A stretch of 54,685 nucleotides of DNA from Thermoanaerobacterales bacterium (lineage in GTDB: Bacteria; Bacillota; Desulfotomaculia; Desulfotomaculales; JASEER01). The stretch lies in contig JASEER010000013.1 in assembly GCA_030019475.1 (NCBI GenBank), forward strand, positions 1 through 54,685, written 5' to 3'. Made by a program: the position numbers and the translations under genes. The notes below the pieces were generated by a model. The model made no database searches, was not told the origin of the DNA, and was given only the letters and a program-made list of their open reading frames with translations. Numbering within the stretch: position 1 is the stretch's first letter; each line of letters opens with the position of its first letter. Positions 3,047 through 6,295 of this stretch are shown here, piece after piece.

Positions 3047-3067
3047 AATGACTGTGTAAACGTCATT
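3047..3067. promoter_or_regulatory. Inverted repeat ahead of the LysR gene
   Basis: AATGAC (3047-3052) and GTCATT (3062-3067) form a perfect 6-base inverted repeat with a 9-base spacer, 18 bases before the LysR-family start. LysR regulators often bind such dyads (T-N11-A type) near their own gene. The assignment as an operator is inference only. Confidence 0.4.
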
Positions 3068-3084
3068 TGAAAGCAGGGGGTATC

Positions 3085-3972
3085 GTGAACCTTAACTACC
3101 TGGAGACCTTTGTCGCGGTAGCCAATTACCAGAGTTTCACCCTTGCCGCGCGAGCCTTGAACCTTACCCAGCCGGCGGTCTCCAAGCATATCGCCCTCCT
3201 GGAAGCCGCCTACGGGGTACGGCTTATAAACCGATCCAGCCGCCGGGTGAAGCTGACGGAGGCCGGGCAGGCGCTCCACCGCTATGCGGTCGAAATCCTG
3301 GACCTCATGGCCCGCGCCGCCCGGGACGTCTCCTCGTTCAGCGAAACGGTCAAGGGACACCTGCACATCGGGGCCAGCACCATCCCGGGGCAGTACGTAC
3401 TGCCCGAGATCCTGAAGGAATTCGGCCGCCGCTACCCCGCGGTGACCATCCACCTGGACATCACCAACACGGGTTCCGTCGTGCAGCAGCTGCTCCAGGA
3501 GACGGTCCAGGTCGGGGCGGTCGGGGCGCCGGTGGACCACCCGCGCATCGCGGCCCTGCCCTTTGCCGCCGACGAACTGGTCCTGATCCTCCCGGCCGAC
3601 CACCCCCTGGCCGCCATGGGCGAGATCCCCGCGGAGCGCCTGGCCGGCGAACGGGTGCTCTGGCGGGAGCCTCGTTCGGGCACCCGGCACGAGGTGGAAC
3701 ACCTGCTCGCCGAAGCGGGGATCGACCCCGCGTCCTTCACCCGAGGCGGAGAGTTCGGGAGCACGGAGGCCATCATCGCCGCCGTGGAGGCGGGCCTGGG
3801 GGTGTCCTTCGTTTCGCGCTGGGCGGCCGAGAAGGCCCTGCGCGGCGGCAAGGCGGTCATGACAGCCATCGCCGGCACCCCCCTGCGGCGCCGGCTGTAC
3901 CTGATCTACCTGCGGGACCGCGTCCTCTCCCCGGCGACCCAGGCCTTCCTGAACGTCGCCACCGGGAAATAA
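3085..3972 (+). CDS. LysR-family transcriptional regulator (CysL-like)
   Basis: One-component DNA-binding regulator with an N-terminal winged helix-turn-helix (residues about 1-60: LETFVAVANYQSFTLAAR, LNLTQPAVSKHIALLE) and a C-terminal periplasmic-binding-protein-like effector domain starting near GHLHIGASTIPGQYVLPEIL. The 295-residue length is typical. I chose the GTG at 3085 because AGGGGG lies 4 bases upstream and the family usually begins M-x-L-x-x-L-x-x-F. An in-frame TTG at 3067 would add six residues. The effector domain resembles the CysL/selenium-associated branch (GASTIPG), but the ligand cannot be read from sequence. It is transcribed divergently from glmU and ends at a strong hairpin. 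Confidence 0.92.
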   Translation: MNLNYLETFVAVANYQSFTLAARALNLTQPAVSKHIALLEAAYGVRLINRSSRRVKLTEAGQALHRYAVEILDLMARAARDVSSFSETVKGHLHIGASTIPGQYVLPEILKEFGRRYPAVTIHLDITNTGSVVQQLLQETVQVGAVGAPVDHPRIAALPFAADELVLILPADHPLAAMGEIPAERLAGERVLWREPRSGTRHEVEHLLAEAGIDPASFTRGGEFGSTEAIIAAVEAGLGVSFVSRWAAEKALRGGKAVMTAIAGTPLRRRLYLIYLRDRVLSPATQAFLNVATGK

Positions 3973-4005
3973 GGAGGCCCGGAACACTAAAGCGCCCGGG
4001 CCTCC
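3973..4005. terminator. Convergent bidirectional terminator
   Basis: GGAGGCCCGG (3973-3982) pairs perfectly with CCGGGCCTCC (3996-4005). It sits between the convergent LysR and HesB-like genes. The flanking T runs are modest (TTAC on the plus strand, TTATTT on the minus strand). Confidence 0.65.
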
Positions 4006-4038: not shown

Positions 4039-4368
4039 CTAGCTGCAGCTTCCCTTGTCGCCGCAGCCCGAGCAGCCGCCCGTGTCGTTGGGGTTCTTGA
4101 TCGTAAAACCGGCGCCACGCCAGGACTTGACGTAGTCAACGACGCAGCCCTGCAGGTACCGGGCGGCGTCCTTGTCGATCACGAACTTGAGGTCCTTGAC
4201 CTCGACCACGGTGTCCCCTTCGTTCACTGACTCATCCAGAGCCATGCCGTAACTGGGACCCCCTCACCCCACGCCGCCGATGTAGACGCGGATCATGGAG
4301 TCGGTCTTGTTGTTGCTGGCCAGAACCTCCTTGAGCTTCTCCTGCGCCTGGTCCGTTACCGTAAGCAT
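4039..4368 (-). CDS. HesB/IscA-like protein, probable selenoprotein (in-frame TGA at codon 35)
   Basis: The reading frame runs from ATG 4368 to the stop at 4039 and is interrupted only by one TGA (4264-4266). Read through, it gives a 109-residue protein, MLTVTDQAQEKLKEVL..., then GGVG-U-GGPSYGMALDE, ending in CSGCGDKGSCS. HesB/IscA proteins are iron-sulfur scaffold or carrier proteins whose conserved cysteines sit at exactly these places, and HesB-like is a recognised prokaryotic selenoprotein family with Sec in the GxUGGPS position. A hairpin with CCAG/CUGG arms and an inner GC/GC pair begins about 8 bases after the UGA, as a bacterial SECIS would require. A start inside the frame at 4245 (MALDESVNEG) would remove the conserved first strand and has no good ribosome site, whereas GAGGTG precedes ATG 4368. 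Sec is inferred, because selA, selB, selC and selD are not in this window. Confidence 0.82.
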
Positions 4369-4397
4369 TGACTTTTTCACCTCGCTCCGCCTTATAG

Positions 4398-4441
4398 ATA
4401 TTATTAATGTTTCTGCTGTGTCTTAATACTCACAGGGGTAT
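4398..4441 (-). promoter_or_regulatory. Promoter and CsoR/CstR-type operator of the HesB-like gene
   Basis: On the minus strand TTAAGA (4421-4426) and TAATAT (4398-4403) are separated by 17 bases, a good sigma-A-type promoter about 30 bases before the gene. Abutting the -35 is ATACTCACAGGGGTAT (4426-4441), which matches the second site at 4522-4537 in 13 of 16 positions. Operator identity is inferred from this match. Confidence 0.6.
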
Positions 4442-4485
4442 TCTATTCCCGAGCGACCCGTCTGTCAACACCATTGCAGAAGCTG

Positions 4486-4537
4486 TTGACGGCCACCGGC
4501 GAACGGCTTATGCTATGGTTGATACCTACTGGGGTAT
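4486..4537 (+). promoter_or_regulatory. Promoter and operator of the CsoR/CstR-family gene
   Basis: TTGACG (4486-4491) and TATGCT (4509-4514) with a 17-base spacer form a near-consensus promoter. ATACCTACTGGGGTAT (4522-4537) contains the perfect inverted repeat ATACC-N6-GGTAT and covers the expected transcription start, an ideal place for repression. Sites of the form ATACC...GGGTAT are typical of the CsoR family. Confidence 0.7.
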
Positions 4538-4557: not shown

Positions 4558-4839
4558 GTGAACCCGCCCTTGAACCCCGAAGCAAGCACGCGCATCATCA
4601 ACCGCCTCAAGCGCATCGAAGGCCAGGCCCGCGGCATCCAGCGCATGATCACCGAGGGCCAGGACTGCAAGCTGGTCATTGACCAACTCAACGCCCTGCA
4701 CGCCGCAGTCCAGAACGCCACCAAGGCGCTGGTCGGGGAGTACCTCGACTGCTGCCTGGCCGCGGAACTGGAGAAGGGCGGTGACTGCCGCCAGGCCCTG
4801 AAGCGGGCGATGGAACTCTTTCTCTGCACCCGTACGTGA
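4558..4839 (+). CDS. CsoR-family repressor, CstR-like (persulfide-type) ligand pattern
   Basis: Small all-helical repressor of the CsoR/RcnR/CstR family (93 residues), with the hallmark INRLKRIEGQARGIQRMI near the N terminus. Copper-sensing CsoR uses Cys-His-Cys, with His four residues before the second Cys. Here Cys37 and Cys66 have the correct 29-residue spacing, but the His position is Tyr62 (GEYLDCCL). This matches CstR proteins, which sense persulfide through two cysteines, better than metal sensors. An extra Cys65 is adjacent. The GTG start at 4558 has GGAGG 12 bases upstream. It is divergent from the HesB-like gene and both promoters carry the same 16-bp site, so it probably represses itself and that gene. 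Confidence 0.85.
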   Translation: MNPPLNPEASTRIINRLKRIEGQARGIQRMITEGQDCKLVIDQLNALHAAVQNATKALVGEYLDCCLAAELEKGGDCRQALKRAMELFLCTRT

Positions 4840-4841
4840 TC

Positions 4842-5594
4842 TTAACGGCCGAGTATTTCCCTCGCCAGTTCCAGGTCGCCGGGCTTGTCGACGTCGACCG
4901 CGATTTCCGGGAACGGCGTAACCACCGCACAACCGCTGATGCCGACCAGGGCGGTCACCTTGCGCTCGGCGTCCTGCAGGGTCAGCCGGCCGGCCGCAAA
5001 GCGCAGAAGAAAGCCTAAACCAACGACCCCCGCCAGCTTGAGCGGCTTTTTACGGTAGGCGGCGAACTCTTCGCCCCGGGCACGGCAGCGGGCGAAGGCC
5101 GCCGGGCGGAAGAGGGCGATGTTGCCCCCTGTAAAACGCCCGTCGCGCAGCCGTACGTAGGTCCGTTTAACGTTCGGGTAGCGCGCGCTCACCACCTTCT
5201 CCTCGGCCACCGGGTAGTATATGTCGGCCGTACGGTCGCCACAGCGGGCCAGGAAGTCCTCCACCGCCTCAGGGGTCAGGAGGGGAACGTCCGCGGTCGC
5301 CACCAGGACCTGCGGGGCCCCGGGAAAGGCGGCCAGGCCCCGGGCCAGGTTTTCCATCAGGCTGTCGCCCGCCGGGATACGCATAATCCGCTCGTCGGGG
5401 GGCAGGACGGGGTGGACCTCGGGCGGCGCGACCACGGCCAGGCGCCCCACCTCGCGCACGGCGAGGAGCACGCGGGCCACTGCGGTCACCATCGGCACTC
5501 CGCCGACCGGGATCAGGGCTTCCCAGGCCGCCGCATCAACCTCCCGCAGCGGTCCGCTGTTGGGGCTGCCGGCCAGAAGGACGGCCTCTATCAC
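4842..5594 (-). CDS. NTP transferase (MobA-like nucleotidyltransferase) family protein
   Basis: A 250-residue protein with the nucleotidyltransferase fold of the MobA/GlmU-N type. It begins IEAVLLAGSPNSG, where the usual GG-x-S-x-R-x-G loop is degenerate, and has PVGGVPMVTAVARVL and the metal-binding VLVATADVPLLTPEAV segment with the conserved Asp. The acceptor is unknown. The altered glycine loop argues against a standard molybdenum cofactor guanylyltransferase. The GTG start overlaps the stop of the upstream gntR-type gene by 4 bases (GTGA), so the two are translationally coupled. It converges with the CsoR-family gene with only two bases between stops. Confidence 0.75.
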   Translation of the reverse strand: MIEAVLLAGSPNSGPLREVDAAAWEALIPVGGVPMVTAVARVLLAVREVGRLAVVAPPEVHPVLPPDERIMRIPAGDSLMENLARGLAAFPGAPQVLVATADVPLLTPEAVEDFLARCGDRTADIYYPVAEEKVVSARYPNVKRTYVRLRDGRFTGGNIALFRPAAFARCRARGEEFAAYRKKPLKLAGVVGLGFLLRFAAGRLTLQDAERKVTALVGISGCAVVTPFPEIAVDVDKPGDLELAREILGR

Positions 5595-6295
5595 CGGTCG
5601 TTGCGCCTCTTTTCTTCCTCCATTGCCAAGAGCAGGCTGTTTTCAGCGTTTTCGATATGTTGCTCCGCCAGGGATCTGGCCAATTCAATCTGCCGCTCGC
5701 TGATCGCCTCGGCGATGGCCTGGTGCTCCAGCAATGCCTCTTTGGTCCGGCCCGGGAGCGAGAGGGTGGTCATGCGAAAACGCTGGATCTGCTCGCCGAG
5801 GTTCGTTACTATCTGGGAAAGCCGCTCATTGCGGCTCGCATGGTAAATCATGTTATGGAACTCAGTGTCCCAGGCCACGACGGCGTTGATGTCCGGAGAC
5901 TGGTCGTCGAAGGGTTGTACGACGGCACGCTGCAGGGCCTCGATCTCGTCCTCGGTGATCCGCTCGGCGGCCAGCCCCGCCGCCAGGGCCTCCAGGGCCG
6001 CCCGCACCTCGAAGACGTCGGTGATGTCCTTATCGGTGATCCCGGCGACGTAGGCCCCCTTCCGGGGTACCATGACGACGAACCCCTCAAGCTCCAGCTT
6101 GCGGATGGCCTCCCTCACCGGAGTGCGGCTGACCCCCAGCTCCTCGGCCAGGGCCAGCTCCATAAGGCGCTCGCCGGGGCGCAGGCGCCCCATGATGATG
6201 GCCTCGCGCAGGGACTCGAAGACCACCTCGCGCAACGGCTTGTAACTGTCGAGCTTTACCGGAAGGAGCCTCCTGGGTTCATCCATCGGCCGCAC
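5591..6295 (-). CDS. GntR-family transcriptional regulator (FadR subfamily)
   Basis: Residues about 15-80 form the GntR winged helix (LREVVFESLREAIIMGRLRPG, then ELGVSRTPVREAIRKLELEG). The remainder is the all-helical FCD effector domain (VFEVRAALEALAAGLAAER, EFHNMIYHASRNERL, EHQAIAEAI), whose His and Asp residues usually bind a metal and a carboxylate. The start could be GTG 6295 (GGGAG very close) or ATG 6286 (GGGAG about 12 bases away); both give the same domains. It is coupled to the downstream nucleotidyltransferase gene and lies immediately downstream of ispE. It has its own promoter in between. The regulated metabolite is unknown. Confidence 0.9.
   Translation of the reverse strand: MRPMDEPRRLLPVKLDSYKPLREVVFESLREAIIMGRLRPGERLMELALAEELGVSRTPVREAIRKLELEGFVVMVPRKGAYVAGITDKDITDVFEVRAALEALAAGLAAERITEDEIEALQRAVVQPFDDQSPDINAVVAWDTEFHNMIYHASRNERLSQIVTNLGEQIQRFRMTTLSLPGRTKEALLEHQAIAEAISERQIELARSLAEQHIENAENSLLLAMEEEKRRNDR

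Follow-up and report, generated by a model that had tools for sequence, protein, structure and literature searches.

The question raised by this locus is whether a short frame broken by a single TGA encodes a selenoprotein and, if it does, under what conditions the protein is made. The frame lies on the reverse strand of the window, which is the whole 54,685-nt stretch of DNA that was analyzed. It comprises 109 codons from the ATG at 4368 to the TAG at 4041 to 4039, with the TGA at 4266 to 4264 as its sole in-frame break, and its translation is MLTVTDQAQEKLKEVLASNNKTDSMIRVYIGGVG-U-GGPSYGMALDESVNEGDTVVEVKDLKFVIDKDAARYLQGCVVDYVKSWRGAGFTIKNPNDTGGCSGCGDKGSCS. An earlier note on this DNA had described the frame as open save for one TGA at codon 35, and the translation bears this out, including the quoted GGVG-U-GGPSYGMALDE stretch and the C-terminal CSGCG. 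When the entire window was scanned for other frames broken by one TGA, no further candidate proved convincing by eye. Judged from the sequence, the gene almost certainly encodes a HesB/IscA-type selenoprotein with selenocysteine (Sec) at UGA codon 35. Gene structure, family, Sec machinery, SECIS conservation, and operator conservation are supported by computation. The features of the locus are collected in Table 1.

Table 1. Features of the hesB locus and its surroundings, in window coordinates
Feature	Position	Strand	Basis
hesB-like selenoprotein gene, 109 aa	4039..4368	-	Frame; PF01521/family profiles; conservation in relatives; AlphaFold model resembling IscA/ErpA/SufA
UGA selenocysteine codon, codon 35	4264..4266	-	First cluster-ligand Cys position of IscA-type carriers; column conserved in relatives
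SECIS-like hairpin UGGCUC-UGGAU-GAGUCA, loop 25 nt after UGA, GG in loop	4228..4244	-	Covariation, conservation, codon usage
Ribosome-binding site GGAGCGAGGTG, 9 nt before hesB ATG	4378..4388	-	Sequence
Putative sigma70-type promoter of hesB, TTGACA-17-TAGAAT	4440..4468	-	Consensus only
Operator-like palindrome 2, AATACCCCTGTGAGTATT, over hesB -10, one base off ATACC..GGTAT core	4425..4442	-	Sequence; equivalent sites upstream of relatives
Terminator-like hairpin after hesB	3973..4005	-	Sequence
Operator-like palindrome 1, ATACCCCAGTAGGTAT, just past -10 of csoR/cstR promoter	4522..4537	-	Sequence; upstream-site comparison
Putative sigma70-type promoter of divergent csoR/cstR gene, TTGACG-17-TATGCT	4486..4514	+	Consensus only
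CsoR-family repressor, CstR-like, divergent from hesB	4558..4839	+	PF02583; Tyr for Cu-ligand His, both sensor Cys kept
Selenium-metabolism-associated LysR regulator, convergent neighbor directly downstream of hesB	3067..3972	+	NF040786, 286.8 bits (cut-off, 250)

As the earlier note had anticipated, a mechanical ORF caller reports just the 68-aa ORF at 4245 to 4039, C-terminal to the TGA. Translation restricted to this ORF, from the ATG at 4245 past the TGA, would agree with such standard output, but the promoter, the ribosome-binding site, and the conserved start all precede the TGA, and the short product would have neither the first ligand nor the N-terminal portion of the fold; we consider this reading highly improbable. 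The terminator-like hairpin 3′ of the gene suggests a single-gene hesB transcript.

The profile PF01521 (Pfam) matches residues 2 to 99, on both sides of the TGA, with 54 bits (cut-off, 26.3), and the A-type carrier domain TIGR00049 (NCBIfam) scores 95.5 (cut-off, 58.8). The AlphaFold model of the 109-aa protein (mean pLDDT of 79, with the last 14 residues of low confidence) is IscA/ErpA-like, and HI1723, IscA, and SufA were among the top matches of a fold search. These profile and fold matches agree with the HesB/IscA-like family named in the earlier note. By its sequence, the gene is a member of the A-type carrier (IscA/ErpA/HesB) family with its TGA at the cluster-ligand Cys. The equivalog cut-offs of ErpA (95.1 versus 117), SufA (65 versus 136.2), and IscA (57.7 versus 150.6) were missed. 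The Sec-containing HesB models, with C scored for U, were also just missed (NF038090, 79.8 versus 85; TIGR01911, 64.8 versus 66.35), and because of these narrow misses we placed the gene with the HesB-like family on the UGA/Cys position and the Sec-decoding trait.

With the known HesB-like selenoproteins (TIGR01911, HesB_rel_seleno; NF038090, IscA_HesB_Se; Zhang et al. 2006, PMC1794560) the window protein has in common the A-type carrier domain, Sec at the conserved IscA-family Cys, and the Sec-decoding trait, although it falls slightly below the cut-offs of both models and retains a CSGCG tail like that of ErpA/IscA. The A-type carriers ErpA, IscA, and SufA share its fold and Cys-ligand positions, while possessing Cys in place of Sec and usually C-S-G-F instead of U-G-G-P after the first ligand. 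MMJJ_08070 of Methanococcus maripaludis, identified by mutagenesis and 75Se labelling, is a HesB-like selenoprotein too, but an archaeal one, and in archaea the SECIS is mostly located in the 3′ untranslated region (PMC11097638). Nitrogen fixation was unimpaired in the M. maripaludis HesB-like disruption mutant (PMC11097638).

TGA-bearing relatives were gathered by protein search of genomes; 55 loci (window included) were chosen from TGA-bearing hits and 22 from hits without TGA. The alignment with homologues that the earlier note had proposed shows TGA in the column of codon 35 in 55/55 TGA-bearing relatives and TGC or TGT in 22/22 others, that is, Cys in place of U in every relative of the second set. 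The motif after the first ligand is U-G-G-P in most Sec forms and C-S-G-F in most ordinary forms. A chance origin of the TGA-broken frame can be excluded, because both sides of the TGA match one family and all 55 TGA-bearing relatives share the TGA column. Three pairs of relatives were compared for substitutions on either side of the TGA: two show mainly synonymous change, and the third, more distant pair gives a mixed picture. In a single genome, a normal Cys-encoding IscA gene whose TGC or TGT had mutated to TGA would look alike, but a pseudogene or sequencing error is extremely improbable given the TGA in the same column across 55 relatives from many families, the protein-level conservation on both of its sides, and the conserved SECIS and genomic Sec genes described below.

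Matches to PF01521 were found in 8 of the 113 genomes of the order, all of them TGA-interrupted, and protein search adds three strong TGA-interrupted copies in the order (G016, G027, and G064) as well as two weak matches in G066. A contig search with the single protein retrieved Cys homologues from Vibrio and from other, chiefly gammaproteobacterial, sources. In one relative, G055 (91% complete), no selA match was found although the TGA gene is present. In a tree of 104 columns with many weak forks, Sec and Cys forms cluster far above shuffled labels, and a small Cys clade (L094, L182, and L189) is nested among Sec forms. This nesting is consistent with a Sec-to-Cys reversal, an event that has been reported for Desulfitobacterium hafniense (PMC1794560). 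Genome G115 possesses both a Sec (L093) and a Cys (L094) HesB copy, the latter retaining a decayed SECIS-like TGGCTCTGGATGATTCG.

The UGA is followed by a hairpin with a 6-bp stem and a 5-nt loop, a SECIS-compatible fold of the kind that the earlier note had proposed to look for, but other than the hairpin it put forward. The CCAG/CUGG hairpin of that note, 7 to 8 nt after the UGA, is present in the letters but is not the conserved structure (63% of cells paired and no compensatory changes in the alignment), and it was rejected. For the hairpin at 4244 to 4228, 328 of 330 stem cells are paired over the 55 TGA-bearing sequences, with compensatory changes from G-C to A-U in 4 sequences and from C-G to U-A in 9. 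Cys homologues pair at these stem positions in only 50/132 cases and lack the hairpin. When the partners were slid against each other (15 sequences), pairing fell from 98.9% to 21 to 51%. The second loop base is G, followed by another G, in most relatives, while three have a UUGUA loop, and relatives share TGRCTYTGGANRAGTCA after the UGA beyond what the protein requires. Two codons seldom used in the window, GCT (5% of Ala codons) and TCA (3% of Ser codons), occupy exactly the positions that the stem dictates.

A model of the bacterial SECIS (PMC13188914) specifies a loop of 3 to 9 nt with G in its first two places, a stem of 4 to 16 bp, a distance of 16 to 37 nt from the UGA, and a minimum free energy of ≤ −7.5. 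The window hairpin agrees with the loop, stem, and spacing rules quoted there, and with the energy rule only when flanking bases are included: the core hairpin alone folds with −6.5 kcal/mol (model, −7.5), while the 48 nt from the UGA reach −11.5, no better than shuffles. Conservation was used to judge the SECIS because single-sequence thermodynamic z-scores gave no signal either way. An Rfam scan of the window returned nothing at gathering thresholds.

The source genome (2.28 Mb; 96% complete) harbors the complete set selA, selB, selC, and selD for which the earlier note had suggested a search. The selC gene encodes a tRNA-Sec with a UCA anticodon, selA and selB are adjacent on contig 20, and there are two selD genes, both with a TGA in frame within the motif SG-U-A(A/C)K. 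The two selD genes (L049 and L050, on contigs 32 and 2) appear to specify two Sec-containing selenophosphate synthetases in one genome. A Pfam search of this genome detected no A-type carrier other than the TGA-interrupted hesB. Any read-through, such as Trp suppression or another code, would likewise yield a full-length protein, but homologues without the TGA have Cys, never Trp, in the column, and a dedicated Sec machinery and a SECIS are present; decoding of the UGA as another residue is therefore barely conceivable. With Sec machinery, a SECIS fold, and Cys homologues all found, the selenoprotein reading of the earlier note is supported. In the proposed mechanism, the hairpin at 4244 to 4228 would direct SelB and Sec-tRNA(UCA) to insert Sec at UGA codon 35, so that Sec would take the place of the first cluster-ligand Cys. 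Together with the Cys-rich tail (CSGCG..SC), Sec would probably bind an Fe−S cluster, iron, or a reactive sulfur or selenium group, as the IscA fold suggests.

The earlier note was silent on the regulatory context, which comprises a divergent CstR-like repressor, operator-like palindromes, and a selenium LysR. The product of the divergent gene matches PF02583 with 74.1 bits and is under the NCBIfam cut-offs of RicR, FrmR, and RcnR. Aligned to the CsoR structure 4m1p and to 7mq1, it shows Tyr at the Cu-ligand His position and both Cys retained. Because Tyr replaces the Cu ligand while both Cys remain, the regulator appears to fit a CstR-like rather than a copper-sensor pattern. The divergent pair of hesB and a CsoR-family gene, ~185 to 199 nt apart, is found in five relatives (6 loci with the window), whose CsoR-family proteins also read Cys-Tyr-Cys by eye. 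The flanks examined around Sec-hesB in genomes outside the order revealed no CsoR-family gene.

Upon reaction, the protomers of Staphylococcus aureus CstR become linked by a C31-C60′ disulfide (PMC5480029), and the Cys residues of this protein are modified by sulfite, selenite, and tellurite (PMC5016687). The window regulator shares with S. aureus CstR (PMC5480029) the CsoR family and the two sensor Cys and is itself without the Cu-ligand His. As in CstR systems (PMC5480029), a palindrome with C/G runs lies at the target promoter, but the S. aureus target is the cst sulfide-oxidation operon, whereas the putative target here is a selenoprotein gene. A divergent CstR-like repressor with operators also sets the window gene apart from other HesB-like selenoproteins, for which none was found described in the literature searched; the same literature yielded no link of CsoR or CstR to HesB or to selenoproteins.

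Directly downstream, the convergent LysR gene belongs to a described selenium-metabolism subfamily (PMC5322559) and possibly encodes another selenium-responsive regulator. In the closest relative (G001/L085), a LysR gene, a putative selenium transporter (YedE), and a TusA-domain protein, whose best NCBIfam match is YedF at a score below its cut-off, adjoin Sec-hesB. These selenium-linked neighbors, in the window and in the relative, also speak for the selenoprotein reading. Past the csoR gene, the window contains a MobA-like nucleotidyltransferase and a GntR/FCD regulator at 4842 to 6295 (reverse strand), and a MobA-like/GntR-like pair of similar look is located directly upstream of hesB in L085.

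Operator-like sites were counted as the best ATACC-N5-7-GGTAT match within 250 nt upstream of each copy. A perfect core was found in 23 of the 55 Sec copies, across the phylum (0.2% in shuffled sequence), and a one-mismatch core in 9 further ones (2.7% in shuffled sequence), while a clear site is missing in 23 of the 55 (≥2 mismatches). None of the 22 Cys copies has a perfect or one-mismatch core in this interval. The perfect match counted for the window is palindrome 1, the one nearer the csoR gene, whereas the palindrome over hesB has a core mismatch.

A genome-wide scan covered 22 genomes chosen because their Sec-hesB carries a site or as the window's own, and in this biased sample strict sites numbered 1 to 15 per genome versus 0 to 2 for a reversed control pattern. 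Among the sites examined in other genomes (L214 to L232), ATACCC..GGGTAT precedes genes for rhodanese, thioredoxin, glutaredoxin, DUF302, DGC, DUF1638, and CsoR-family proteins, and some other examined palindromes have no obvious sulfur gene behind them. The gene set thus appears partly sulfur- or thiol-flavored and represents a candidate CsoR/CstR-type regulon. In the window's own genome, the only strict ATACCC..GGGTAT site (C4:57512), 1.3 kb from selC, lies between convergent gene ends and was rejected as an operator. The CsoR-family gene behind the palindrome at L219 has, by eye, a copper-type His, so that the palindrome alone fixes neither a sulfur sensor nor an inducer.

We infer that hesB is probably under CstR-type control by the divergently encoded repressor. 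This CstR-like protein would most likely hold hesB expression off by binding both palindromes of the ATACCCC..GGTAT type that overlie the divergent promoters, and would release the DNA upon reaction of its Cys pair with persulfide or with oxyanion species of selenium. Copper is known to harm Fe−S clusters. The PF02583 family consists mostly of metal sensors, and with the same palindrome at L219 in front of a CsoR with His at the ligand place, the regulator might instead be a copper sensor, with hesB serving Fe−S repair in a copper response rather than one to persulfide or selenium. We regard this as unlikely: Tyr stands in for the Cu-ligand His in the window regulator and, judging from their sequences, in those of the five linked relatives; rhodanese, thioredoxin, and glutaredoxin are among the other genes behind such sites; and no copper exporter was seen beside the regulator among the ORFs examined. 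Under CstR-type control, HesB would be an inducible Fe−S or sulfur/selenium-stress factor, and fold, ligand chemistry, and regulation together point to an inducible role in Fe−S or sulfur/selenium handling. The evidence is evenly balanced on the wider proposal that across the phylum Sec-HesB widely belongs to a CstR/CsoR-type regulon, in which an S/Se-reactive repressor, often encoded elsewhere, is released under reactive sulfur or selenium stress.

The selenoprotein call mends an annotation that standard ORF calling cuts down to 68 aa, and the tight SECIS consensus can aid the search for further members. The HesB-like selenoprotein family is already known, while CstR-type control of it was not found described in the literature searched. 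The conserved operator and the divergent CstR-like repressor provide a testable hypothesis on when and why HesB is made and, if true, a phylum-wide CstR/CsoR-type regulon would lend HesB-like selenoproteins a physiological context.
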